Below, piece after piece: positions 15,432 to 30,400 of a DNA stretch of 64,000 nt. The position numbers and the translations under genes are program-made. The notes beneath the pieces are model-generated. The model was given only the letters and a program-made list of their open reading frames with translations. It was not told the DNA's origin and did not search any database. This stretch comes from Alcaligenes sp. SORT26. Lineage in GTDB: Bacteria; Pseudomonadota; Gammaproteobacteria; Burkholderiales; Burkholderiaceae_B. The stretch is from assembly GCF_017377875.1 (NCBI RefSeq), contig NZ_CP070975.1, positions 1-64,000 of the forward strand. The letters are read 5' to 3'. Position 1 is the first letter of the stretch. Each line of letters starts with the position of its first letter.

Positions 15432-18017
15432 TTACAGACCTACGGAGTCAGCAATTTCCTTGAACTCTTCGATCTGGTCGAAGTTCATGTAGCGATAGAT
15501 GTCTTCGCTATTGGCTTGCAGTACGCCCATGTCGGTCAGGTACTCTTCGCGGGTTGGGATACGACCCAGACGCGAGCAGATGGCAGCCAGTTCAGCCGAA
15601 CCCAGGAACACGTTGGTGTTCTTGCCCAGACGGTTGGGGAAGTTGCGGGTGCTAGTGGACATGACGGTGGCGCCTTCGCGAACCTGTGCCTGGTTACCCA
15701 TGCACAGCGAGCAACCGGGCATTTCCATACGAGCACCGGCTACGCCCAGAACGCCGTAGTGGCCTTCTTCGCTAAGCTGTTGCTGGTCCATCTTGGTCGG
15801 AGGAGCGACCCACAGACGGGTTGGAATGTCGCGCTTGCCTTCCAGCAGCTTGGAAGCGGCACGGAAGTGACCGATGTTGGTCATGCAGCTACCGATAAAC
15901 ACTTCGTCGATCACGGTGCCGGACACCTCGGACATGGTTTTCACGTCGTCAGGGTCGTTCGGGCAAGCCACGATAGGCTCGTGGATTTCAGCCAGATCGA
16001 TGTCGATAACAGCGGCGTATTCAGCGTCTGCATCGGGTTCCAGCAGTTCCGGGTTAGCCAGCCAGGCTTCCATGCCCTTGATACGACGTGTGATGGTGCG
16101 CTCGTCTTCGTAGCCATTGGCAATCATCCACTTGAGCAGCGTGATGTTGCTGTTCAGGTATTCGATGATGGGCTCTTTGCTCAGACGCACGGTACATGCG
16201 GCAGCGGAACGCTCGGCGGAAGCGTCGGACAGCTCGAAAGCCTGTTCGATCTTCAGGTTGGGCAGACCTTCGATTTCCAGAATGCGGCCGGAGAAGATGT
16301 TCTTCTTGCCTGCTTTCTCGACAGTCAGCAAACCTTGCTTGATGGCGTACAGAGGAATGGCGTTAACCAGGTCACGCAGGGTGACGCCGGGCTGCATTTC
16401 GCCTTTGAAGCGCACCAGCACGGATTCTGGCATGTCCAGAGGCATCACACCGGTAGCAGCAGCAAAGGCCACCAGACCGGAACCAGCGGGGAAGCTGATG
16501 CCGATAGGGAAACGGGTGTGCGAGTCGCCACCGGTACCAACGGTATCGGGCAACAACATGCGGTTCAGCCAGGAGTGGATGATACCGTCGCCTGGACGCA
16601 GGGAAACACCACCGCGTGTGCTGATGAAAGCAGGCAGTTCGTGGTGAGTTTTAACGTCAACAGGTTTGGGGTAAGCGGCGGTGTGGCAGAAGGACTGCAT
16701 CACCAGATCGGACGAGAAGCCCAGGCAAGCCAGGTCTTTCAGTTCGTCGCGAGTCATTGGGCCAGTGGTGTCCTGGCTGCCAACGGTGGTCATGCGTGGT
16801 TCGCAGTAGGTGCCGGGACGCACGCCTTCGCCTTCAGGCAGACCGCAAGCACGGCCAACCATCTTCTGGGCCAGGGAGAAACCTTTACCGGAATCAACAG
16901 GGCTTTGTGGCAGGCGGAACAGGGTGGTTGGGGGCAGACCCAGTGCTTCGCGAGCACGGGTGGTCAGGCCACGGCCAATGATCAGGGGAATACGGCCACC
17001 GGCACGCACTTCGTCAAACAGTACGTCGGACTTGACCTGGAATTCGGAGATCAGCTCGCCATTCTTGAAGGCTTTGCCTTCGTAGGGACGCAGTTCAACC
17101 ACATCGCCCATTTCCATATTGGAAACGTCCAGCTCGATAGGCAGCGCGCCAGCATCTTCCATGGTGTTGTAGAAGATAGGAGCAATCTTGCTACCCAGAC
17201 ACACGCCACCAAAGCGTTTGTTAGGAACGAAAGGAATGTCTTCGCCGGTGAACCACAACACGGAGTTGGTGGCCGATTTACGCGAAGAACCGGTACCGAC
17301 CACGTCGCCCACGTAGGCAACCAGGTGGCCCTTTTCTTTCAGGGATTCGATGAAGCTGACAGGGCCTTGTTTGCCGGGCTCTTCAGGTTCGATACCTGGG
17401 CGCGGGTTTTTCAGCATGGCCAGAGCGTGCAACGGAATGTCCGGGCGGCTCCAGGCGTCAGGGGCGGGGGACAGATCGTCCGTGTTGGTCTCGCCAGTGA
17501 CTTTGAAAACGGTGACAGTCAGGCTTTCGGGGACTTCAGGGCGGCTGGTGAACCACTCGCCGTCGGCCCAGCTTTGCAGTACTTCTTTAGCAAAGACGTT
17601 GCCCTTTTCGGCTTTTTCCTGAACGTCGTGGAAAGAGTCAAACATCAACAGGGTGTTTTTCAGGCCGTTGGCGGCGATCTGGCCCAGTTCGGGCTTGTCC
17701 AGCAGTTCGATCAGCGGGCTGATGTTGTAGCCACCCAGCATGGTTCCCAGCAGCTCAGTGGCACGCTCGCGGCTGATCAAGGCACAGGTTTCTGTGCCCA
17801 GCGCGATGGCGGCCAGGTAAGAGGCTTTAACCTTGGCGGCGTCGTCCACACCGGCGGGGACGCGGTGCGTCAGCAGGTCGACCAGGACGGCTTCTTCACC
17901 GGCAGGTGGGTTCTTGATGAGCTCGATCAGCTCGGCGGTCTGCTGAGCCGACAAAGGCAGCGGGGGAATGCCCAGAGCGGCGCGCTCGGCAACATGTTCG
18001 CGGTAAGAGTCCAGCAT
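15432..18017 (-). CDS. acnB: Aconitate hydratase B / 2-methylisocitrate dehydratase
   Basis: Interconverts citrate and isocitrate in the TCA cycle; AcnB enzymes also handle 2-methyl-cis-aconitate in the methylcitrate cycle. ATG at 18017 gives 861 residues (E. coli AcnB has 865) and starts directly with the HEAT-like N-domain. The 4Fe-4S ligands are visible in GSCMTN and in CSLCMGNQ near the C-terminus. The gene lies downstream of prpB-prpC and two small genes on the same strand, but has its own predicted promoter and a 21-bp palindrome, and its own terminator. No prpD or acnD is in the window. Confidence 0.97.
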
Positions 18018-18078: not shown

Positions 18079-18107
18079 ATTGTAATTTGAAGCGGGCAGC
18101 GAAGCAA
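18079..18107 (-). promoter_or_regulatory. Predicted sigma-70 promoter of acnB
   Basis: Minus strand TTGCTT (18107-18102) and TACAAT (18084-18079) with 17-bp spacing; start near 18072, 55 bp before the start codon. The weak -35 lies 2 bp from the 21-bp palindrome, a layout shared with mdh. Confidence 0.55.
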
Positions 18108-18109
18108 TG

Positions 18110-18130
18110 GTCTTATATCTTATATAAGAC
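18110..18130. promoter_or_regulatory. 21-bp palindrome, copy 1 (acnB), probable GntR operator
   Basis: Perfect 9-bp arms GTCTTATAT and ATATAAGAC around CTT, centred at about -48 of the predicted acnB promoter. An identical copy is at 24486-24506. Assignment to the GntR protein encoded at 24608 is inference from proximity. Confidence 0.65.
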
Positions 18131-18156
18131 TTACAAGAAACTGAATGTTGCTGTGT

Positions 18157-18432
18157 TCAGGCCAGCAAGTCGGCGTATTCAGGGTGGCGGCGGAAATAGA
18201 CCACGGCATAGCTGCAAACAGGGCGTACTTTCCACTGTTGGTTTTTTGCCGTTTCCAGCGCAAAGCGGGTCAGTTGCCCAGCAATGCCGCGGCCTTCCAG
18301 CTCGGGCGGCACGCGGGTGTGGGTGATGCTCATGATGGCATCGTCCAGTTCGTATTCGATGACACTGCGCAGGTTTTCAACGTCGCAAAAAAACAGACGC
18401 GCTTGCGGGTCGTGGTGGATCTCGGTGGTCAT
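18157..18432 (-). CDS. Small GNAT-type N-acetyltransferase (YidJ/COG2388-like)
   Basis: A 91-residue protein with the acetyl-CoA loop VPPELEGRGIAGQLTRFAL and the terminal SYAVVYFRRHPEYADLL typical of the minimal GNAT fold of this group. ATG 18432 follows AAGGAG. The frame is open farther upstream but reads as the end of the neighbouring gene there. The substrate is unknown. It lies 11 bp after a small membrane-protein gene, between prpC and acnB. Confidence 0.82.
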   Translation of the reverse strand: MTTEIHHDPQARLFFCDVENLRSVIEYELDDAIMSITHTRVPPELEGRGIAGQLTRFALETAKNQQWKVRPVCSYAVVYFRRHPEYADLLA

Positions 18433-18443
18433 GGCAGGCTCCT

Positions 18444-18845
18444 TCAAGTGGGGTTGGAGTGCAGGGCAATCAGAACCCAAACAGCCAGCATGCAGATCAT
18501 GCCCAGAAAGCAGCCGCCCCACAGTCCCATCAGGGGCCATTTGATGCCCATGGGAACATCTTCGGGCTGTACGTGCTTGAGCAGACGGTTGGCATTGCCA
18601 AACAGCGAGCTTTGGCGTTTGGGAAAGTTCAGGCGCAGGAAATAATCCAGTAGCACGCCTGCTTTCAGGGAAAAGCTGAGTTTTTCCCAGGGATACTGGT
18701 CCAGATAAGGGTGACGCAACACCTGATTGCTGCGGCGCAGATTAAAAAGTAGCAAATACGCACCGGAGACCAGACTGGTCAGGGCACAGGCGATCATCAG
18801 GGTTCCGGCCAGGGGCAGGGCATAGCGTACAAAATCAGAGAGCAT
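18444..18845 (-). CDS. Small membrane protein of unknown function
   Basis: 133 residues with one hydrophobic segment near the N-terminus (about 10-35, PLAGTLMIACALTSLVSGAY) and one or two near the C-terminus (WPLMGLWGGCFLGMICMLAV and onward); the charged middle part should face the cytoplasm. ATG 18845 is used; a TTG 15 bp upstream is possible. No family recognised. It lies 88 bp downstream of prpC and is cotranscribed with the GNAT gene. Confidence 0.65.
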   Translation of the reverse strand: MLSDFVRYALPLAGTLMIACALTSLVSGAYLLLFNLRRSNQVLRHPYLDQYPWEKLSFSLKAGVLLDYFLRLNFPKRQSSLFGNANRLLKHVQPEDVPMGIKWPLMGLWGGCFLGMICMLAVWVLIALHSNPT

Positions 18846-18861
18846 GGAAGTCACCAGCAAG

Positions 18862-18893
18862 ACGGCCCCGCCTGCGCAATGCAGCGGGGCCGT
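18862..18893 (-). repeat. GC-rich hairpin after prpC
   Basis: ACGGCCCCGC and GCGGGGCCGT form a strong stem in the 88-bp gap after prpC. No T-run follows on the minus strand, so it may be an mRNA-stabilising or partial termination element. Confidence 0.5.
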
Positions 18894-18933
18894 GAGTCAA
18901 ATCACAGGCGAATAATAGCCCAGGATCTGTGAC

Positions 18934-20097
18934 TTATGGGCGCTGATCCAGAGGCACAAAGCTCTGATTTTCAGGGCCAATGTAGTTGGCGGTAGGACGA
19001 ATAATCTTGTTGTCCACGCGCTGCTCAATCACGTGAGCCGCCCAGCCAGCCGTACGCGCGATCACGAACAAAGGCGTGAACATGGCGGTAGGCACGCCCA
19101 TGGTGTGGTAGGACACGGCCGAGAACCAGTCCAGATTGGGGAACATTTTTTTCACTTCCCACATCACGCTTTCCAGACGCTCGGCAATGTCGAACATGCG
19201 GGTGTTGCCATCGGCCACGGCCAGCTCTTTGGCTACCGATTTGATGACTTCGTTGCGTGGGTCGGAGATGGTGTAGACGGGGTGACCGAAGCCAATAATG
19301 ACTTCCTTGTTTTCCACGCGCTTGCGGATGTCTTCTTCAGCCTGGTCGGGGTTCTCGTAGCGCTTCTGGATTTCAAAAGCCACTTCGTTGGCACCACCGT
19401 GCTTGGGGCCGCGCAGGGCACCGATAGCACCGGCAATGGCGGAGTAGAAGTCCGAACCCGTACCGGCGATAACGCGGCTGGTAAAGGTGGAGGCGTTGAA
19501 CTCGTGCTCGGCGTACAGGTTCAGCGACACGTGCATGGCTTTCTCCCACTCGGCCGATGGCTTCTCGCCATGCAGCAGGTGCAGGAAGTGCGCGCCGATG
19601 CTGTCATCGTCAGTCTGCACATCAATCATTTCGCCGTTGTGGCTGTAGTGGTACCAGTACAGCAGGGCCGAACCCAGGCAAGCCATCAGACGGTCAGCGA
19701 TGTCGCGCGCGTCGGGCAGGTTGTGGTCGTCTTTTTCAGGCAGCACGCAACCCAGAACCGATACGGCAGTGCGCATCACATCCATAGGGTGGCTGTGGGC
19801 AGGCAGGGTTTCCAGTGCGGTTTGCAGGGCCAGAGGCAGGCCGCGCAGACGCTTGAGCTTTTGCTTGTACGCGCGCAGTTCGTCGCGGTTGGGCAATTTG
19901 CCGTGAATCAGCAAATGGGCCACTTCTTCAAATTCGCAAGCCTGGGCCAGATCCAAGATGTCGTAGCCGCGGTAGTGCAAGTCATTGCCACTGCGACCGA
20001 CCGTGCACAAGGCGGTATTACCTGCGACAACGCCAGACAGGGCCACCGATTTCTTGGGTTTGAAGCCAGTGCTAGGGGTGTTCTCAGTACTACTCAT
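18934..20097 (-). CDS. prpC: 2-Methylcitrate synthase
   Basis: Condenses propionyl-CoA with oxaloacetate to 2-methylcitrate. 387 residues, shorter than the type II citrate synthase GltA in this window (434) and of the PrpC size. Active-site elements include [21 protein letters not shown] and [11 protein letters not shown] 20097 follows AGGAG. The gene is 104 bp downstream of prpB on the same strand, so prpBC is one unit driven by the sigma-54 promoter at 21171-21185. Assignment as PrpC rather than a second citrate synthase rests on size and on prpB/prpR as neighbours. Confidence 0.95.
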
Positions 20098-20201
20098 AAA
20101 GGTCTCCTGGTTGCTGGGCAGCCAGCACGAGGCTGGCTGCTGAATGGGGTTTTATCCGCGCCAAAGCCCTGTCAAAGGGCCAGGCGGGAGCCTGTGGCGG
20201 C

Positions 20202-21101
20202 TCAGGACTTCTTGTTTTTCTGGAACAGCTTGTCGAGGCTTTGCTCGTAAGCATGGTAGCCGATACGATCGTACAGTTCTTCACGAGTCTGCATCAAATC
20301 GATGACATTTTTTTGATGTCCGTCACGACGGATCGCCTGGTAGACAGTTTCGGCGGCCTTGTTCATGGCGCGGAAGGCGGACAGTGGGTAGAGCACCATG
20401 GCTACATTGGCCGAAGCCAGTTCTTCCACAGTGAACAAGGGGGTTTGACCGAACTCGGTAATGTTGGCCAGCACAGGCACATTCAGAGTTTCGGTAAAGC
20501 GACGGTAGGTGTCCAGGTCGTAGCAGGCTTCAGCAAAAATGCCGTCTGCACCTGCTTCCACGCAAGCCTGGGCACGTTCCAGAGCGGCGTCCACGCCTTC
20601 AACTGCAATCGCATCCGTACGAGCCATGATGAAAAAATCCGGGTCGGTACGAGCGTCGACAGCAGCTTTCACACGGTCGGCCATTTCGCCGGTGCTGACG
20701 ATCTCTTTACCGGGGCGGTGACCGCAACGCTTGGCACCGACCTGGTCTTCAATGTGGCAAGCGGCTGCGCCGAACTTGATCAGGCTTTTAATGGTACGGG
20801 CGATGTTGAAGGCCGAGGCACCAAAGCCGGTATCAATGTCCACCATCAAAGGCAGGTCGCACACATCGGTAATGCGACGAATGTCAGTCAGCACGTCGTC
20901 CAGGGTGTTGATGCCCAGATCAGGCAAACCCAGAGAGCCAGCAGCCACACCGCCGCCCGACAGGTAAATGGCACGGTAGCCGGCGCGTTGGGCCAGCAAA
21001 GCGTGGTTGGCGTTGATGGCGCCAATGATTTGCAAAGGCTGCTCTTCACGCAAGGCCTGGCGGAAACGGGCGCCTGCCGATGTCAGTTGGTTTTGGCTCA
21101 T
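20202..21101 (-). CDS. prpB: 2-Methylisocitrate lyase
   Basis: Cleaves 2-methylisocitrate to pyruvate and succinate, the last step of the methylcitrate cycle. 299 residues of the isocitrate lyase/PEP mutase fold, with the metal site [12 protein letters not shown] and the catalytic [12 protein letters not shown] loop (KRCGH is the family signature). GGAG stands before ATG 21101. First gene after the sigma-54 promoter and divergent from its probable activator gene prpR. Confidence 0.97.
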
Positions 21102-21170
21102 TTGGGGCTCCAGATCACAAGATAAGAAAATGTCGTCAGCGCGAGGCTGCGATGGGTTGGTTCTACTAAA

Positions 21171-21185
21171 GCAAATGCTGTGCCA
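21171..21185 (-). promoter_or_regulatory. Consensus sigma-54 promoter of prpBC
   Basis: Minus strand TGGCAC-N5-TTGC is an exact match to the -24/-12 consensus with the invariant GG and GC 10 bp apart. The start would be near 21160, 58 bp before the prpB start codon. PrpR, encoded divergently, is a sigma-54 activator. Confidence 0.88.
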
Positions 21186-21294
21186 AGTTCAGGTATGGGG
21201 AGGATGAAACGCCTGAAGCCAGACTGGACGGGGGTCTCTTCCGTGGTTTGCTGTTGTCATTCCTTTCTGTGAATACTGCTTTTTCCTGTTTTGT

Positions 21295-21322
21295 GTTTCA
21301 ATGTTGAAACGTAATTTGAAAC
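21295..21322. promoter_or_regulatory. Probable PrpR enhancer sites
   Basis: A perfect palindrome GTTTCAA-TG-TTGAAAC (21295-21310) is followed by a further half site TTGAAAC at 21316-21322, and GTGAAAC at 21346-21352 may be another. They lie about 135-190 bp upstream of the sigma-54 start, the normal distance for an enhancer, and just before prpR, where they could also serve autoregulation. Confidence 0.6.
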
Positions 21323-21355
21323 AACGTCGCATTGTTGATGCCTGGGTGAAACTGC

Positions 21356-23269
21356 ATGCCTTATTCTTCTTCTCCTCCTGCTCGTCTGCGTCTGGTGGCT
21401 TTTGGCCTGCATGGACTGCGTTCTCTACTGGAAGAACTGGTGCCGCAGTTCCGCGCCCAGGCTGAAATTCTGATCGTGGACAAAGCCTATGGCGAGGCCG
21501 TAGAAGCCGTGCAGGTTTTGCGACAAACAGGTGAAATCGACGTGCTGGTGTCCGCCGGTTCCAACGGTAGTTATTTGCGCGAGCATCTGGACTTGCCGGT
21601 GGTGCTGGTGCATCCCGGTGGCTTTGACATTATGGGCAGTCTGGCCTCGGCACAGGCCGAGCGCAAAGCCGTGGTGACCTATGGCGAAATGCCGCTGGAA
21701 CTGATGGAGTTCGTGCAGCGTTTTGATCTGCCTGTAGAGCTACGGAGCTATCGTAGTGAAGCCGATGCACGTAGCTGTGTTCAGGATTTGAAAGAGCTGG
21801 GTGTGGAGTGGGTGCTGGCACCCGGTCTGGTGGTGGATTTGGCGCGCGAGAACCAGATGGAAGGCGTGCTGCTGTATTCACAAGGAGCAGTGCGGCAGGC
21901 ACTGGAATCCGCTATCGAACTGGCCCGCGTTGCTCGCGCCGAAGCGGCTCGTCGGGATCGCTTGAATACGATTCTGGCGCAGTTGCGTGACGGTGTGGTG
22001 TCAGTGGACAGGGACGAGCGTATTGAAACCATTAACCCGGCGATGGAGGCCTGGTTGGGGCAACCGGCGCAAGCCATGATTGGCCGCCGCTTGGGTTCCT
22101 TGTATCCCGAGCTGGATCTGGCGGGCACGCTGCGCAGTCTGGAAGTGCAACTGGATACCGTGCAACAAGTGGGCGGCCGTACCGCGATCGTTACCCGTAT
22201 GCCGATTCTGGAGCAGGGGCGCTTGAGCGGGGCGGTGTTGCTGTGTCAGGACCCGGCAGCGATTCAACGACTGGACCGCAGCTTGCGCTCGCGCAGTCAG
22301 CAAGCGGCATCGCGTCATGCCCGGTACGAGCTGTCTGATCTGGTGGGGCAAAGCTCGCCCATGCGCAAGCTGCGAGCTCAGGCTCAGGCTTGTGCACAAA
22401 GCACAGCGACGACCTTGATCATTGGCGAGAGTGGTACAGGCAAGGAACTGCTGGCCCAAGGAATTCACAGTGCCAGCGCCAGACGTGCACAACCTTTTGT
22501 GGCAGTGAACTGCGCGGCGTTCCCCGACAGCCTGCTGGAAAGCGAGTTGTTCGGTTATGTGGAAGGCGCATTTACAGGTTCCAGCCGGGGCGGCAAAGTC
22601 GGGCTGGTGGAAGCGGCTCACACCGGCACCCTGTTTCTGGACGAGATCGGGGAAATGCCCTTGCCACTGCAAACCCGTTTGCTGCGGGTGCTGCAGGAAA
22701 AAGAAGTCCTGCGCATCGGGGCGATTGAGCCAACGCCCGTCGATGTGCGCGTGATTGCGGCCACTCACCGTGATCTGGCCGCGCAAGTTAAAGCAGGCGT
22801 GTTCCGTCAGGATCTGTTTTATCGCCTGAATATTCTGGTGCTGCGCTTGCCACCTTTGCGTCTGCGCACACAGGACTTGCCGGAACTGGTGGAGCATCTC
22901 TTGGCAAAAGTGGCCCAGCGTCTGGGTGGGGCCGTTACGCTGAATTCCGATTGGCTGGCTGAACTGCTGGAACTGGGCCGTCACTACACGTGGCCCGGCA
23001 ATATCCGCGAGCTGGAAAACCTGATCGAACGCTTGATGGTCTTGGGCACAGTGCAAGGTGATCAGGCCGTGGTGCTGGAAGATATTGCGCCGGAGCTGCG
23101 GGCGGTAGTGGCAGAGCCCGCCATGCCTGCGCTGCGTGATCAGCAAGAGCGCAGCGAGCAGGAGCATCTGGCCAAGGTGCTGGAAGAGTGTGGGGGTAAT
23201 CGCGCCCTGGCCGCCCAGCAACTGGGGATTAGTCGTAGCACTTTGTGGCGGAAGTTGCGTAAAGGCTGA
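21356..23269 (+). CDS. prpR: Propionate catabolism sigma-54 activator PrpR
   Basis: Enhancer-binding activator of 637 residues. The PrpR-type sensor domain covers about residues 8-190, followed by a PAS-like segment (about 205-310), the AAA+ domain with Walker A GESGTGKE near residue 357 and GAFTGS near 404 for contact with sigma-54, and a C-terminal Fis-type helix-turn-helix ([20 protein letters not shown]). In known systems 2-methylcitrate is the effector. It is divergent from prpBC, which has a consensus -24/-12 promoter. The start at ATG 21356 is preceded only by a weak GGGTG. Confidence 0.95.
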
Positions 23270-23287
23270 GCTGGCCGCTGTACAGGC

Positions 23288-23318
23288 AAAAAAAATCCCC
23301 GCCGATCAGGCGGGGATT
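23288..23318 (-). terminator. Terminator of mdh, between convergent prpR and mdh
   Basis: Perfect 10-bp stem AATCCCCGCC / GGCGGGGATT with 5-nt loop, followed on the minus strand by a T-run (complement of 23288-23295). The plus side has no T-run, so it mainly serves mdh. Confidence 0.88.
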
Positions 23319-23337
23319 GCAGACACTGGTGGCTTAA

Positions 23338-24327
23338 TTAGCCCAGCAGGTCTTTCACACCGTCGCGCTCTTCCAGCAGCTCGTTCAGGGTGTGGTCCAT
23401 GCGCTCACGCGAAAAGGCGTCGATTTCCAGGCCTTCAACACGCTTGTACTCACCGTTTTCGGTGGTCACAGGCACGCCGTAGATGATGCCTTCAGGAATG
23501 TCGTAGGAGCCGTCCGAAGGAACACCCATGGTGACCCATTTGCCGTTGGAGCCCAGGACCCAGTCACGCACGTGGTCGATGGCCGCGTTGGCAGCCGAAG
23601 CAGCCGAGGACAGGCCACGGGCTTCGATGATGGCGGCGCCACGTTTGCCCACGGTGGGGATGAAGGTTTCGCGGTTCCAGGCCTGATCGTTGATGATCGC
23701 GTCGATCTTCTCGCCGTTCACGGTAGCGAAACGGGTGTCAGGGTACATGGTGGGCGAGTGGTTGCCCCACACAATCAGGTTCTCGATGTCAGCAACAGCC
23801 TTGCCGGACTTGGTGGCCAACTGCGACAGGGCGCGGTTGTGGTCCAGACGCAGCATGGCGGTGAAGTTCTTTGCTGGCAGATCAGGAGCCGACTTCATGG
23901 CGATGTAGGCGTTGGTGTTGGCAGGGTTGCCGACCACCAGCACTTTCACGTCACGGCTGGCCACTTTGTTCAGGGCACGGCCTTGTGCAGTGAAGATCTG
24001 GGCGTTGAAGGCCAGCAGATCTTTACGCTCCATGCCTGGGCCGCGAGGACGGGCACCGACCAGCAGGGCGATATCAACATCCTTGAATGCGGTTTCAGGG
24101 TCGCTGTGGGCGGACATGCCTTGCAGCAGCGGGAAGGCGCAGTCGTCCAGTTCCATCATGACGCCCTTCAGGGCCTTTTGGGCTTTCTCGTCGGCGAGTT
24201 CCAGCAACTGCAGGATTACAGGCTGGTCTTTGCCCAGCATTTCGCCAGAGGCGATGCGAAACAGCAGGGCGTAACCAATCTGGCCAGCAGCGCCGGTAAC
24301 GGCGACACGCATTGCGGGTTTGGACAT
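23338..24327 (-). CDS. mdh: Malate dehydrogenase
   Basis: Oxidises malate to oxaloacetate with NAD. ATG 24327 gives 329 residues; the open frame upstream has no homologous character. Visible are the Rossmann loop [14 protein letters not shown], the mobile catalytic loop [15 protein letters not shown] with the substrate arginines, [15 protein letters not shown], and the catalytic histidine in [11 protein letters not shown]. This is the MDH type common in Burkholderiales. A predicted promoter and the second copy of a 21-bp palindrome, shared with acnB, lie upstream. Confidence 0.97.
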
Positions 24328-24454
24328 GAGAGTAAGACTCCGTTTTTGGGTTTGAAGACGGTGACGAAAAACACAGTTTAAATCTTTTGCTGACCGGTCG
24401 GCTGGCGTGGAAAACGGTTTTTCGCAAGAGGAAAAGCCTCTTTTTTCACTGCGC

Positions 24455-24483
24455 AGACTAGACCAAAACGATAGCGGCGTCAA
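24455..24483 (-). promoter_or_regulatory. Predicted sigma-70 promoter of mdh
   Basis: Minus strand TTGACG (24483-24478) and TAGTCT (24460-24455) with 17-bp spacing; start near 24448. The -10 is weak. The palindrome begins 2 bp upstream of the -35, as at acnB. Confidence 0.45.
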
Positions 24484-24485
24484 AC

Positions 24486-24506
24486 GTCTTATATCTTATA
24501 TAAGAC
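24486..24506. promoter_or_regulatory. 21-bp palindrome, copy 2 (mdh/gntR), probable GntR operator
   Basis: Identical in all 21 positions to the copy at 18110-18130; centred at about -48 of the predicted mdh promoter and 112 bp upstream of the gntR start. Confidence 0.65.
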
Positions 24507-24607
24507 ATAAGAGCGTTAGACATTCGGGGCCGGTCATGCGAAAATTAGTGCACTGTCTATTTTATGAACAAATGCGCGCCGCAGGCTGTATTGATCGCGC
24601 ATTTTTT

Positions 24608-25387
24608 ATGAGCCCCATGTCTGATAACGTGCCGCCGCTACGCACCCAGGAAATCGAAAAATCCGCTCCTAGCGCGGCCTATAGCCCTCTGTATCAACAG
24701 ATCAAGGCTTTGCTGCTGCAAGGGCTGGATCGTGGCGAGTGGAAACCCGGCGAAGCCATCCCCAGCGAACTGGAACTGGCCGCCCGTTTTCAGGTCAGCC
24801 AGGGCACGGTACGTAAAGCCATTGACGAGCTGGCTGCCGACAATCTCCTGATTCGTCGCCAGGGTAAAGGCACCTTTGTGGCTACCCATCACGAAGCGCG
24901 TGTGCGTTTTCGTTTTTTGCGTCTGGCCCCGGACGATGGCAAGCCCGTCGCCTCCCAAAGCCGCATTCTGGATGTGCGCCGCATGAAAGCGCCTACCGAT
25001 GTGGCCGTGCTGCTGGATCTGCGCACCTCGGACATGGTGGTGAACCTGCGTCGGGTTCTGTCCTTTGATCAGGTCCCCACCATTTATGACGATATCTGGT
25101 TGCCTGGCTCCGTCTTCAAGGGTTTGACCCTGGAAGCCGTCGAGCAGAACAAGGGTCCGATGTACGCCTGGTTCGAGAGCAAGTTTGGCGTCAGCATGGT
25201 GCGCGCCGATGAAAAGATTGGCGCAATCAGCGCTACCGAGGAGGCCGCAGCGGTCTTGCAGGTGGCGGCTGGATCGCCACTCCTGCACGTGGAACGCGTG
25301 TCCTATACCTATGGTGACCGACCGATGGAGTTGCGCCGGGGCTTGTACCTAACTGAGCGCTTCCATTACCGAAACACGCTCAGCTAG
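24608..25387 (+). CDS. GntR-family regulator with UTRA domain (HutC type)
   Basis: Transcription factor of about 259 residues: N-terminal winged helix (YSPLYQQIKALLLQGL, PGEAIPSELELAARF, SQGTVRKAIDEL, RRQGKGTFV) and a C-terminal UTRA ligand domain (about 105-255). The start is uncertain because no ATG in the frame has a ribosome-binding site: 24608 and 24617 agree with the family, 24572 is possible. It lies between mdh and sdhCDAB, and a palindrome shared with the acnB promoter lies directly upstream. It may sense a TCA or related acid; ligand unknown. Confidence 0.9.
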   Translation: MSPMSDNVPPLRTQEIEKSAPSAAYSPLYQQIKALLLQGLDRGEWKPGEAIPSELELAARFQVSQGTVRKAIDELAADNLLIRRQGKGTFVATHHEARVRFRFLRLAPDDGKPVASQSRILDVRRMKAPTDVAVLLDLRTSDMVVNLRRVLSFDQVPTIYDDIWLPGSVFKGLTLEAVEQNKGPMYAWFESKFGVSMVRADEKIGAISATEEAAAVLQVAAGSPLLHVERVSYTYGDRPMELRRGLYLTERFHYRNTLS

Positions 25388-25489: not shown

Positions 25490-25903
25490 ATGTCTGATAC
25501 CGCACCCAAGCAGCGCCCGCAGTATCGCAATATCAGCGTGCCGCAGATATTGAATTACCGCTTGCCCCTGGCTGCAAAATCGTCGATTTTGCATCGCGTC
25601 AGTGGCGCATTGCTGTTTCTTTGCCTGCCGCTCGTCTTATTGCCACTGTTCTCTTTGAGCGTCAGCTCTCCAGAGTCCTTCGAGACCTTGCGCAGCTACG
25701 TCGACAACCCCGTCTGTAAGCTGATCCTTCTGGTCCTGATCTGGGGCTACCTGCACCACTTCTGTGCCGGTATCCGCTATCTGGCACTGGACCTGCACCT
25801 GGGTAACGACAAAGAGTCCGCCAAGAAATCGGCCGGTATGGTGTTCGGGGTTAGCTTGGCGCTGACCGTTGTGTTTGGTTTGAAACTGTTTGGGGTGTGG
25901 TAA
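25490..25903 (+). CDS. sdhC: Succinate dehydrogenase cytochrome b556 subunit
   Basis: Membrane anchor of complex II, 137 residues with three hydrophobic segments. SILHRVSGALLF contains the HRxSG motif of the quinone site, and HHFCAGIRYLALD contains the haem-ligand histidine. It overlaps sdhD by one base (TAATG) and starts the sdhCDAB-sdhE-gltA run. Confidence 0.95.
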   Translation: MSDTAPKQRPQYRNISVPQILNYRLPLAAKSSILHRVSGALLFLCLPLVLLPLFSLSVSSPESFETLRSYVDNPVCKLILLVLIWGYLHHFCAGIRYLALDLHLGNDKESAKKSAGMVFGVSLALTVVFGLKLFGVW

Positions 25904-26286
25904 TGGCAAATCGTGAGCGCATTGGCGCAAACCGCCTGGTAGTGGGTGCCCACTACGGTACCTTGGACTTTCTGGCACAACGCGTTACCGCAGTCATCAT
26001 GGCCATCTACACCTTGGTCATTGTTGGCGGCATCCTGTTCAGCAGTGAATTGAATTTCGAGACCTGGCGCGGCCTGTTCTCGTTCACGGTCGGCTCCCTG
26101 CCTTTGGGTCAGTTGCTGGCAACCTTGTTCTTCCTGTCTTTGTCCTGGCACGCCTGGATTGGTGTGCGTGACATCTGGATGGACTACGTCAAGCCCGCTG
26201 GTTTGCGCTTGTTGCTGCAGGTGTTGACCTTGCTGTGGCTGGTTGCCAGTGTCGTCTTTTTTGCAAAAATTATCTGGAGTCTCTAA
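25903..26286 (+). CDS. sdhD: Succinate dehydrogenase membrane anchor subunit
   Basis: Second membrane anchor, 127 residues from ATG 25903, with three hydrophobic segments. WHAWIGVRDIWMDYV includes the conserved histidine and aspartate near haem and quinone. A GTG 6 bp earlier is in frame, but the ATG overlapping the sdhC stop is the natural start. Confidence 0.94.
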   Translation: MANRERIGANRLVVGAHYGTLDFLAQRVTAVIMAIYTLVIVGGILFSSELNFETWRGLFSFTVGSLPLGQLLATLFFLSLSWHAWIGVRDIWMDYVKPAGLRLLLQVLTLLWLVASVVFFAKIIWSL

Positions 26287-26289
26287 ACC

Positions 26290-28068
26290 GTGGCTTCCAT
26301 CACAAACTCTTTGCCCCGCCGTCAGTTTGACGTAGTGGTGGTCGGTGCCGGTGGCGCCGGTATGCGTTGTTCCCTGCAATTGGCTCAGGCTGGCTTGTCC
26401 GTGGCCGTGCTCAGCAAGGTGTTCCCAACCCGCTCCCACACCGTGGCTGCTCAAGGTGGCGTCAGTGCCTCTTTGGGTAACATGAGCGAGGACCACTGGT
26501 ACTGGCACATGTACGACACCGTTAAAGGTTCGGACTGGCTGGGCGACCAGGACGCCATCGAATTCATGTGCCGTGAAGCTCCACACGCTGTGTACGAGCT
26601 CGAGCACTTCGGTATGCCGTTTGACCGTAACCAGGACGGCACCATTTATCAGCGTCCATTTGGTGGTCACACCGCCAACTTCGGTGAAAAGCCTGTTCAA
26701 CGTGCCTGTGCCGCTGCTGACCGTACTGGCCATGCCATGCTGCACACGCTGTACCAGCGTAACGTGGCTGCTCGTACCCAGTTCTTCGTGGAATGGATGG
26801 CTCTGGATCTGCTGCGTAACGAAGCAGGCGACGTTCTGGGCGTAACCGCTCTGGAAATGGAAACCGGCGAAATCTACGTTCTGGAAGGCAAGCGCGTGGT
26901 GCTGGCTACCGGTGGTGCTGGCCGTATCTGGGCTGCTTCCACCAACGCCTTCATCAACACCGGTGACGGCCTGGGTATGGCTGCTCGTGCCGGTCTGCCT
27001 TTGCAAGACATGGAGTTCTGGCAATTCCACCCCACTGGCGTTGCCGGTGCTGGCGTGCTGATTACCGAAGGCGTGCGCGGTGAAGGCGGTATCTTGCTGA
27101 ACAAAGACGGCGAGCGCTTCATGGAGCGTTACGCTCCCACCCTGAAAGACTTGGCCCCACGTGACTTCGTGTCCCGTTCCATGGACCAGGAAATCAAGGA
27201 AGGTCGTGGTTGTGGCGACGGCAGCTATGTGGTGCTGAAGCTGGATCACCTGGGTGCTGACGTCATCAAGAAACGCTTGCCATCGATTCGCGAAATCGCG
27301 ATCAAGTTCGGTAACGTGGACCCGATCAAAGACCCGATCCCCGTGGTTCCAACCATCCACTACCAGATGGGCGGTATCCCCACGAACTACTACGGTCAGG
27401 TTGTGACCCAAACGCCAACCGGCGAGAACAAGATCGTCAACGGTCTGTACGCCATCGGTGAATGTGCCGCTACTTCCGTGCACGGTGCCAATCGTCTGGG
27501 TACGAACTCCTTGCTGGATCTGATCGTGTTTGGTCGCGCTGCGGGCAACCACATTGTGGATTCGCACCCCGAGAAAACTCACGCTCACCAGGAAATCAAC
27601 GAGTCCTCCATCGAGTACTCGCTGGATCGCGTCAACCGTCTGGAATCCCGTACATCGGGCGAAAAGGCACAGGACGTGGGCAACAAGATTCGTGTGGCCA
27701 TGCAGGCTCACTGCGGCGTGTTCCGTACCCTGGATCTGCTGCACAAGGGTGTCGAACAGATCGATTCCCTGGTTCCCGAAGTCAAAGACATTTACTTCAA
27801 AGACAAGTCCAAGGTGTTCAATACCGCCCGTATTGAAGCCCTGGAAGTGGCCAACATGATCGAAGTGGCTCGTGCCACCACGAAGTCGGCCGCCAATCGT
27901 ACTGAAAGTCGCGGTGCTCATGCCCTGAACGACCACCCGGAACGTGACGACGAAAACTGGCTGCGTCACACCCTGTGGTTCTCGGAAGGCAGCCGTCTGG
28001 AGTACAAGCCTGTCCAGATGAAGCCTCTGACAGCCGAAACGATTCCGCCCAAGGCCCGGACTTTCTAA
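26290..28068 (+). CDS. sdhA: Succinate dehydrogenase flavoprotein subunit (GTG start)
   Basis: Catalytic subunit that oxidises succinate to fumarate. 592 residues. The FAD-binding VVVGAGGAGMR is at the N-terminus, and RSHTVAAQGGVSASLGN contains the histidine for covalent FAD. GEGGILLNKDGERFME and HGANRLGTNSLLDLIV are further active-site and FAD contacts. The start is GTG at 26290, three bases after the sdhD stop; no ATG is near. Gene order and spacing show one operon. Confidence 0.97.
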   Translation: MASITNSLPRRQFDVVVVGAGGAGMRCSLQLAQAGLSVAVLSKVFPTRSHTVAAQGGVSASLGNMSEDHWYWHMYDTVKGSDWLGDQDAIEFMCREAPHAVYELEHFGMPFDRNQDGTIYQRPFGGHTANFGEKPVQRACAAADRTGHAMLHTLYQRNVAARTQFFVEWMALDLLRNEAGDVLGVTALEMETGEIYVLEGKRVVLATGGAGRIWAASTNAFINTGDGLGMAARAGLPLQDMEFWQFHPTGVAGAGVLITEGVRGEGGILLNKDGERFMERYAPTLKDLAPRDFVSRSMDQEIKEGRGCGDGSYVVLKLDHLGADVIKKRLPSIREIAIKFGNVDPIKDPIPVVPTIHYQMGGIPTNYYGQVVTQTPTGENKIVNGLYAIGECAATSVHGANRLGTNSLLDLIVFGRAAGNHIVDSHPEKTHAHQEINESSIEYSLDRVNRLESRTSGEKAQDVGNKIRVAMQAHCGVFRTLDLLHKGVEQIDSLVPEVKDIYFKDKSKVFNTARIEALEVANMIEVARATTKSAANRTESRGAHALNDHPERDDENWLRHTLWFSEGSRLEYKPVQMKPLTAETIPPKARTF

Positions 28069-28081
28069 GCAGGATACTGAT

Positions 28082-28798
28082 ATGAGCCAAAAACGTAAGG
28101 TCAAATTTGAAATCTATCGCTACGATCCTGATAAGGACGAGCGTCCCTACATGCAGAAAATCGAAGTCGAGTTGGAACCAACCGACAAGATGCTGCTCGA
28201 TGCGATTTTGCGCATTAAAAACGACATGGACGACAGCCTGGCGCTGCGTCGTTCCTGCCGCGAAGGTGTGTGCGGTTCCGATGCCATGAACATCAATGGC
28301 AAGAACGGTCTGGCCTGCACCACCAATATGCGTGACTTGAAAGAACCTGTGGTCTTGCGCCCACTGCCAGGTCTGCCGGTTATCCGTGACCTGATCGTGG
28401 ACATGACCCACTTCTTTGATCAGTACCATTCGGTCAAGCCATTCCTGATCAACGATGCACCTCCTCCAGAGAAAGAGCGTTTGCAAACGCCTGAAGCCCG
28501 TGAGGAGCTCGATGGTCTGTACGAGTGCATTCTGTGCGCCTGCTGCTCGACCTCTTGCCCATCGTTCTGGTGGAACCCCGACAAGTTCGTCGGTCCTGCT
28601 GGTTTGTTGCAAGCCTATCGTTTCATTGCTGACTCGCGTGACGAAGCAACGGGCGAGCGTCTGGATAATCTGGAAGATCCATACCGCTTGTTCCGCTGCC
28701 ACACGATCATGAATTGCACGGACGTCTGTCCAAAAGGACTGAACCCGTCGCATGCCATCGGCAAGATCAAAGAAATGCTGGTGCGTCGCAGTATCTAA
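28082..28798 (+). CDS. sdhB: Succinate dehydrogenase iron-sulfur subunit
   Basis: Electron-transfer subunit of complex II, 238 residues. The 2Fe-2S ligands are in SCREGVCGSDAMNINGKNGLAC (abridged: CREGVCG and the later LAC), the 4Fe-4S ligands in CILCACCSTSCP, and the 3Fe-4S ligands in CHTIMNCTDVCPKGLNP. AGGA precedes ATG 28082. Confidence 0.97.
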   Translation: MSQKRKVKFEIYRYDPDKDERPYMQKIEVELEPTDKMLLDAILRIKNDMDDSLALRRSCREGVCGSDAMNINGKNGLACTTNMRDLKEPVVLRPLPGLPVIRDLIVDMTHFFDQYHSVKPFLINDAPPPEKERLQTPEAREELDGLYECILCACCSTSCPSFWWNPDKFVGPAGLLQAYRFIADSRDEATGERLDNLEDPYRLFRCHTIMNCTDVCPKGLNPSHAIGKIKEMLVRRSI

Positions 28799-29077: not shown

Positions 29078-29095
29078 CCATTGAGGAAAAAAGTG

Positions 29096-30400
29096 ATGGA
29101 ATTGTCAGATAAAAAAGCCACGCTATCCTTCTCCGACGGAAGCCCTTCGGTTGAGTTCCCTGTACACAAGGGCACCGTAGGTCCGGACGTGATCGATATC
29201 CGTAAGCTCTACGGTCAGACAGGTATGTTTACCTATGACCCCGGCTTTATGGCGACGGCGGCTTGCGAATCCGGTATCACCTACATTGACGGCGACAAAG
29301 GCCAGTTGATGTACCGTGGCTACCCGATCGACCAGTTGGCACAAAAGTGCGATTTCATGGATGTGTGCTACCTGATCCTGAACGGCGACTTGCCGAACGC
29401 AGATCAGAAGCAGGAATTTGATTCCCTGGTCACGAACCACACCATGGTTCAGGAACAGATGCAGCACTTCCTGCGTGGCTTCCGTCCGGACGCTCACCCC
29501 ATGGCAATACTGACTGGCCTGGTCGGTGCCTTGTCGGCGTTCTATCATGATTCCACGGACATCACGAATCCTCATCACCGTCATGTGTCGGCTATTCGCT
29601 TGATCGCCAAGCTGCCTACTCTGGTTGCGATGGCGTACAAGTATTCTTTGGGACAGCCTTTCATCTATCCCAAGAATGATTTGTCCTACACCGGCAACTT
29701 CTTGCGCATGATGTTCGCTACCCCTTGCGAAGACTACAAGGTCAACGAAGTGGTTGAGCGCGCTCTGGACCGTATCTTCATCCTGCATGCAGATCACGAG
29801 CAAAACGCCTCGACCTCCACCGTGCGTCTGTGCGGTTCGTCCGGCACCAATCCTTTCGCTGCGATTGCTGCGGGTGTTGCTTGCTTGTGGGGGCCTGCCC
29901 ACGGTGGTGCAAACGAAGCTTGCCTGAACATGCTGGAAGAGTTGCAAGCCAACGGTGGCATCGACAAGGTTGGCGAGTTCATGGAGAAGGTCAAGGACAA
30001 GAACTCGGGCGTTCGCCTGATGGGCTTTGGTCACCGTGTCTACAAGAACTACGACCCACGCGCCAAGCTGATGCAAGAGACTTGCAAGGAAGTTCTGGAA
30101 GCCCTGGGCCTGGAGAACGATCCTCTGTTCAAGCTGGCCATGGAAGTCGAGCGCATTGCTCTGGAAGATCCATACTTCGTCGAGCGCAAACTGTACCCCA
30201 ACGTGGACTTCTACTCGGGTATCGTTCAGCGTGCTATCGGCATCCCGACGTCCTTGTTCACAGCGATCTTCGCTTTGGCTCGTACCGTAGGCTGGATTGC
30301 TCAGTGGAACGAAATGCTGTCCGATCCAGATTACAAGATTGGCCGTCCACGTCAGTTGTACGTGGGTCCAGTCCAGCGCGACGTACCTGCTCAGCGTTAA
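29096..30400 (+). CDS. gltA: Citrate synthase (type II)
   Basis: Condenses acetyl-CoA with oxaloacetate. ATG 29096 after GAGGAAA gives 434 residues, as in other proteobacterial GltA. Catalytic segments are [28 protein letters not shown] with the active histidine, and [11 protein letters not shown]. The N-terminal extension of about 45 residues relative to PrpC is the part linked to NADH control in hexameric enzymes. It is 18 bp behind sdhE and the last gene of the sdh operon. Confidence 0.97.

Follow-up and report, generated by a model that had tools for sequence, protein, structure and literature searches.

The identical palindromes upstream of acnB and mdh in Alcaligenes sp. SORT26 very probably serve as operators for the GntR/UTRA protein whose gene lies at 24617-25387 and belong to its regulon, this protein being the Alcaligenes orthologue of SdhR. 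SdhR is a regulator known from computer prediction; the site itself is not new, and its Alcaligenes members are. Taken across genomes, SdhR seems to regulate central metabolism in much of a bacterial order, and the regular geometry between half-sites and promoters opens its mode of action to direct testing. The window (the whole stretch of 64,000 nucleotides that was analysed) contains the following features of the locus.

15432-18017, minus strand: acnB, bifunctional aconitate hydratase 2/2-methylisocitrate dehydratase (TIGR00117, 1520.6 bits, cut-off 1287.2)
18079-18107, minus strand: candidate acnB promoter TTGCTT-17-TACAAT, by sequence reading
18110-18130: predicted SdhR operator of acnB, with the core ATCTTATATAAGAC at 18117-18130 and the promoter-proximal half-site GTCTTAT at 18110-18116
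23338-24327, minus strand: mdh, malate dehydrogenase (NF003916, 572.5 bits, cut-off 271)
24455-24483, minus strand: candidate mdh promoter TTGACG-17-TAGTCT, by sequence reading
24486-24513: predicted SdhR operator of mdh/gntR, with half-sites at 24486-24492, 24493-24499, 24500-24506 and 24507-24513, and the core at 24493-24506
24516-24545, plus strand: candidate gntR promoter TTAGAC-18-GAAAAT, 2 bp past the other side of the array
24617-25387, plus strand: sdhR-like gene (gntR), regulator with GntR HTH and UTRA domains, HutC subfamily (PF00392, PF07702)
25490-28798, plus strand: sdhC, sdhD, sdhA and sdhB, 3' of gntR (Pfam Sdh_cyt, FAD_binding_2/Succ_DH_flav_C and Fer2_3; sdhD, TIGR02968 with 111.9 bits, cut-off 41.8)
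29081-30400, plus strand: gltA, citrate synthase (PF00285)

Homologues served to infer the gntR start at 24617: in many of them the alignment begins at residue 2 or 3 of the reading that starts at 24611. An in-frame ATG is also present at 24608. A generic promoter scan lists the gntR promoter as TAGACA-17-GAAAAT (24517-24545) and, at its threshold, omits the acnB and mdh promoters (2 found in the window vs 2.0 expected). Because the scan omits both, the acnB and mdh promoters are weak predictions when the window is considered alone, and conservation in relatives supports these predicted promoters. Elsewhere in the window, repeated TTTCAA/TTGAAA elements (GTTTCAATGTTGAAACGTAATTTGAAAC) occur at 21295-21325 between prpB and the divergent gene of the sigma-54 regulator PrpR; these are perhaps PrpR sites.

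The repeated palindrome and the SdhR motif

The preliminary description had reported the same 21-bp sequence twice, with 9-bp arms and a CTT spacer, and a search of the window confirmed this exactly: GTCTTATATCTTATATAAGAC lies on the plus strand at 18110-18130 and at 24486-24506, with the arms GTCTTATAT/ATATAAGAC. Its placement of the 21-mer 2 bp from a -35 element with a 17-bp spacer is likewise correct for both acnB and mdh, as read on the minus strand. Outside the 21-mer the two sites are unequal, because a fourth half-site (ATAAGAG, 24507-24513) adjoins it at mdh/gntR. In the genome of 4,083,727 bases (one contig), these two copies are the only exact ones, even with the spacer left free in the search, and so small a number is what might be expected if both were chance occurrences or a mobile repeat with no regulatory role. 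We give this explanation practically no credence: GTCTTATATCTTATATAAGAC with up to three mismatches had no match in 100 dinucleotide shuffles of the window, on which ground a chance repeat was rejected, and the site is kept at the same genes throughout an order, such conservation at orthologous promoters being the observation that was set to refute a chance or mobile repeat.

A full-text literature search for the 12-mer TCTTATATAAGA, which also covered its inner 10-mer, found the 12-mer, among the matches listed, only in PMC4494728. The excerpt of that paper gives the motif TCTTATGTCTTATATAAGACATAAGA for SdhR (GntR family, HutC subfamily) and cites Suvorova, Ravcheev and Gelfand (2012, J Bacteriol) for this regulator. 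Compared with the motif as printed in the excerpt, the mdh/gntR site agrees at 25 of 26 bases (one differs) and the acnB site at 22 of 26 (four differ). The site had been described as one without a named regulon; given its match to TCTTATGTCTTATATAAGACATAAGA, the palindrome is the published SdhR motif of the excerpt (PMC4494728) and its regulon already has a name.

The protein encoded next to the mdh/gntR site belongs to the same family and subfamily as SdhR, based on its matches to PF00392 and PF07702. Likeness to the SdhR of the PMC4494728 excerpt thus extends to motif and subfamily, and the name points to sdh, which adjoins the gene here: gntR (24617-25387) is followed by sdhC (from 25490) with the site upstream, an adjacency that is expected from the name SdhR only. 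gntR would also be autoregulated. No NCBIfam model matched the protein at its cut-off, and SdhR as a protein name is absent from the NCBIfam and Pfam matches; the best named relative, from A. faecalis AU14, shares 99% identity. Within the open-licence literature, no functional study of SdhR, whether by this name or another, was among the matches listed. The structure 3cnv ('Putative GntR-family transcriptional regulator') aligns to residues 98-257 of the 24611 reading with 204.9 bits, which corresponds to the UTRA part; it is a chain of 162 residues that lacks the DNA-binding part. We take its source organism to be Bordetella bronchiseptica, and we know of no function for it.

Core, half-sites and predicted promoters

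The part of the site that is constant in relatives is an even-centred 14-bp core, RTCTTATATAAGAY, with 7-bp half-sites on either side that read ATAAGAY outward. In these terms the 21-mer consists of the core and one half-site, and the mdh/gntR array comprises four half-sites across 28 bp. Upstream of gntR, the core is present without mismatch in 41 of 50 order-wide loci and with at most one mismatch in 46 (named loci: 71 and 78 of 80, respectively). A divergent mdh was detected in 37 of the 50 order-wide loci, 33 of which have the core within one mismatch, as do all 13 loci in which mdh was not detected within the stretch read; distances to the gntR start in this set were extrapolated from the query and may be up to ~60 nt too short. 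Flanking half-sites are frequent as well: at least six of seven letters match at 60 of 76 proximal positions of the non-redundant mdh promoters vs 1 of 380 control positions.

The preliminary description took the odd-centred 21-bp palindrome (9-bp arms, 3-bp spacer) as the unit. That this palindrome is the operator, with its centre fixed at -48, appears improbable, even though the acnB promoters offer arguments for it: the exact 21-mer occurs at 13 of 23, the outer arms stay constant while the middle half-site is either CTT or AAG, and in Castellaniella (L180, L186 and L194) the same 21-mer is reversed with its 2-bp distance unchanged. In promoter sets preselected for the core, however, the exact odd 21-mer was found at just 31 of 76 mdh promoters and at none of 11 aceA promoters, compared to 69 and 8, respectively, for the perfect even 12-mer core, and in three loci (L039, L042 and L054) no proximal half-site can be recognised beside the core. 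As a general unit, the odd-centred 21-mer is therefore disfavoured, the even core being far commoner at mdh and aceA promoters.

The position of the core relative to predicted promoters was analyzed with a sigma-70 matrix scan (approximate matrices, 120 start positions round the core) and a shuffled-flank control of 40 rounds. Loci entered the non-redundant promoter sets if their core had one mismatch or none, which left out 5 of 114 mdh, 6 of 130 gntR, 10 of 34 acnB and 2 of 13 aceA loci, and near-duplicates (at least 80% identity over 100 bp) were left out too. The sequences share common ancestry, and most of the aceA and icd loci had been chosen for holding a site, so that the frequency of the core at these two genes is that given below for genomes with both gene and regulator. 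For position sets picked after the distribution was known, the best -35 lay +2 to +12 from the core at 66 of 76 mdh promoters (shuffled mean 3.7, maximum 7), at exactly +2, +9 or +16 at 16 of 23 acnB promoters (mean 0.4, maximum 2), at 0 to +9 at 5 of 11 aceA promoters (0.4, maximum 1) and at +2 to +12 at 35 of 85 gntR promoters (4.5, maximum 14). The best promoters of icd were scattered relative to the core.

Distances were then expressed from the array edge, with the -35 sought 0-24 bp from the core and promoters scoring <3 omitted (mdh, 2 of 76; acnB, 2 of 23; aceA, 3 of 11; gntR, 9 of 85). Among the scored promoters, the edge lies exactly 2 bp from the -35 at 17 of 21 for acnB, 2-5 bp at 62 of 74 for mdh (22, 19, 8 and 13), 2-3 bp from the best -35 at 36 of 76 for gntR, and 0-5 bp at all 8 for aceA. 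Since edges are near a -35 on either side, the mdh-gntR array parts two back-to-back predicted promoters. Measured from the core, the distance to the -35 in scored promoters ranges over 4-19 bp at mdh and is 2, 9 or 16 bp in 18 of 21 cases at acnB, i.e., 2 bp plus zero, one or two half-sites (2+7n). At acnB, two extra half-sites separate the core from the -35 in L162 and L171, one does so in many loci, and seven others (L180, L186, L194, L197, L202, L217 and L234) have none there and carry an extra half-site on the far side.

The core centre thus moves, because the distance to the -35 varies over 4-19 bp at mdh, and the centre at about -48 given in the preliminary description was not upheld; a fixed -48 centre was rejected for acnB also, where the distance varies. 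The equal geometry it saw at the two promoters holds and recurs in relatives as the short distance from edge to -35, and a constant centre does not recur. What is kept at the promoters is thus not the centre but the edge of the array, which mostly precedes the predicted -35 by 2-5 bp. The 2+7n spacing at acnB is one modest new regularity; the excerpt of PMC4494728 contains neither a geometry relative to promoters nor a sign nor a list of targets, and the regularity of the array edge at promoters is a feature from the present analysis. In 74 of 80 named loci the mdh strand carries TTGAC no more than 60 bp from the core, and among the 23 non-redundant acnB promoters the best -10 is TACAAT in 16.

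Distribution of the core and the regulon

We searched 150 genomes, of which 79 had a match to the GntR protein; 50 of the 79 were read further, and cores were counted in 26, with the reversed core pattern as control. In these 26 genomes, which were chosen for having the protein, there were 87 forward vs 8 control matches to the core with at most one mismatch, and 25 have at least one such core; genome G028 encodes the SdhR protein and has no core within one mismatch. Another 20 genomes of the order, with no GntR match at 1e-40, gave 25 forward vs 30 control matches, and 6 of the 20 have a perfect core. In four of these six (G004, G012, G020 and G026), the perfect core has mdh on one side and on the other a diverged gntR (33-38% identity), which is followed by sdhC. 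The other two, G039 and G040, together have 13 forward and 13 control matches; beside one of the three perfect cores of G039, and beside the single one of G040, the query proteins had no match. The remaining 16 genomes, which are SdhR-free, have 20 forward vs 28 control matches; even a threshold of 1e-15 gave no gntR match in 15 of the 16, and the sixteenth, G010, has one at 4.9e-20 with 29% identity.

This pattern of presence and absence across genomes ties the core to the GntR regulator, and it favours the link to the adjacent GntR/UTRA gene that had been suggested from the window, in that the core appears to track the protein (87:8 vs 20:28). The SdhR relatives of 33-38% identity are also seen at the loci L281-L284 (with L146, L147, L148 and L151), with the same core between mdh and sdhC. 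Because these relatives keep the core, conservation is much stronger in the DNA site than in the SdhR protein.

A motif scan of the genome and of relatives had been proposed in the preliminary description. The genome has five places with a core of at most one mismatch, four of which precede mdh/gntR, acnB, aceA (1400260) and icd (1735008). The fifth (C1 2056682-2056695; L010 1501-1514) has one mismatch, lies 27 bp before a gene for O-acetylhomoserine sulfhydrylase (aminocarboxypropyltransferase) and may be due to chance; this gene, aceA and icd were named by NCBIfam equivalogs. In relatives that have both gene and regulator, the core (up to two mismatches) precedes aceA in 13 of 23 genomes, and a core precedes icd in just 4 of 20, on which basis icd was rejected as a general target. 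For acnB, 24 of 34 loci have a core with at most one mismatch: 8 of the 17 from the 26-genome set, none of the one other locus, and all 16 named loci with a readable acnB start, in which the core is perfect. Single relatives have a core before acnA, a second-type isocitrate lyase, a monomeric isocitrate dehydrogenase, sucA, acs or prpE, the gene context of the 87 cores being that among the matches listed, with gaps chiefly in G066. Other cores in relatives fall within long open frames or close to genes of no evident connection, such as ornithine carbamoyltransferase-like, argD-like and methyltransferase genes; not all cores need therefore be functional, given those inside long open frames or without a clear gene link.

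Beyond mdh/gntR-sdh the regulon varies, as is evident from icd (4 of 20), aceA (13 of 23) and the absence of the acnB core in 10 of 34 loci. The picture is of a putative regulon for the TCA cycle, glyoxylate and short-chain acids, with mdh and gntR-sdh as its constant centre and a changing rim. Upstream of aceA, a second recurring element, TTTCATATCGnGAAA-like, is located ~45-60 bp upstream of the SdhR core in several families; it lies at L007 ~1557-1571 (C1 ~1400316-1400330) in this genome, with similar elements in L264, L269, L275 and L278, and is probably the site of another isocitrate lyase regulator.

Proposed action of SdhR and its direction

Conservation of the site, its joint occurrence with the regulator and its geometry relative to predicted promoters are results of the comparison; the binding, ligand, oligomeric state and sign of SdhR are inferred as follows. 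One dimer would occupy the even-centred core TCTTATATAAGA, with additional subunits on the flanking 7-bp half-sites. In this genome SdhR would jointly control genes of the TCA cycle and the glyoxylate pathway, namely acnB, mdh, gntR together with sdhCDAB, aceA and icd, in response to a metabolite bound by its UTRA domain. At acnB, mdh and gntR the array would act from a position immediately before the predicted -35, its proximal half-site being 2 bp away in this genome.

Direct activation at acnB, mdh and gntR-sdh is, in our judgement, an even call. An edge kept close to the -35 fits an activator that touches RNA polymerase, which is suggestive, the promoters being predicted ones. The position upstream of the -35, the constant edge and the weak acnB -35 (TTGCTT in 6 of 23 promoters, TTGCCT in another 6) all suit activation.

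Plausible as well, if short of probable, is that SdhR is a plain repressor, which near the -35 of mdh, gntR and acnB would hinder sigma region 4 or the alpha C-terminal domains and at downstream sites would block initiation or elongation, until the metabolite releases it. HutC-type regulators are mostly repressors. The mdh -35 is near consensus (TTGACG at 36 of 76 promoters, TTGACA at 21), as repression would allow, and G016 (locus L289), with no gntR match at 1e-15, keeps the mdh promoter TTGACA-17-TAAACT. At icd (L129, L132 and L134) and acs (L141), a candidate -10 picked by eye, GTGCATAAT/TACAAT, precedes the core. The mdh, acnB and some aceA sites, however, are upstream of the best predicted -35 and do not overlap the promoter, and repression does not require that the acnB edge stay at 2 bp despite changes in half-site number.

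FadR of E. coli, a GntR-family protein, represses the fad genes and activates fabA/fabB; it therefore provides a precedent in this family for activation from a site near the -35 and repression elsewhere, although it differs from SdhR in subfamily, ligand domain, motif and genes. SdhR might be a dual regulator that reads arrays, activating acnB, mdh, gntR-sdh and aceA and repressing icd and acs in some lineages, with the proximal half-site anchored 2 bp from the -35, the other half-sites varying in number and orientation (2+7n), and the contact with RNA polymerase surviving these half-site changes; we put this combined proposal forward as speculative. Through such dual action one protein would set the flux between the full TCA cycle and the glyoxylate shunt. 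If the array edge counts, the effect would persist when one 7-bp half-site is added or removed; if the palindrome centre counts, it would be lost.

The SdhR-free genomes also bear on the activation by SdhR proposed at mdh. An mdh was found at 1e-60 in 8 of the 16, and the promoter at L289 is of the same kind as that in genomes with SdhR, whereas the other seven differ. Because L289 has a like mdh promoter without SdhR, this comparison leans against a strong dependence on an activator. The locus itself (G016) retains the mdh-sdh neighbourhood with no core of at most one mismatch; SdhR was likely lost there and the mdh promoter retained.
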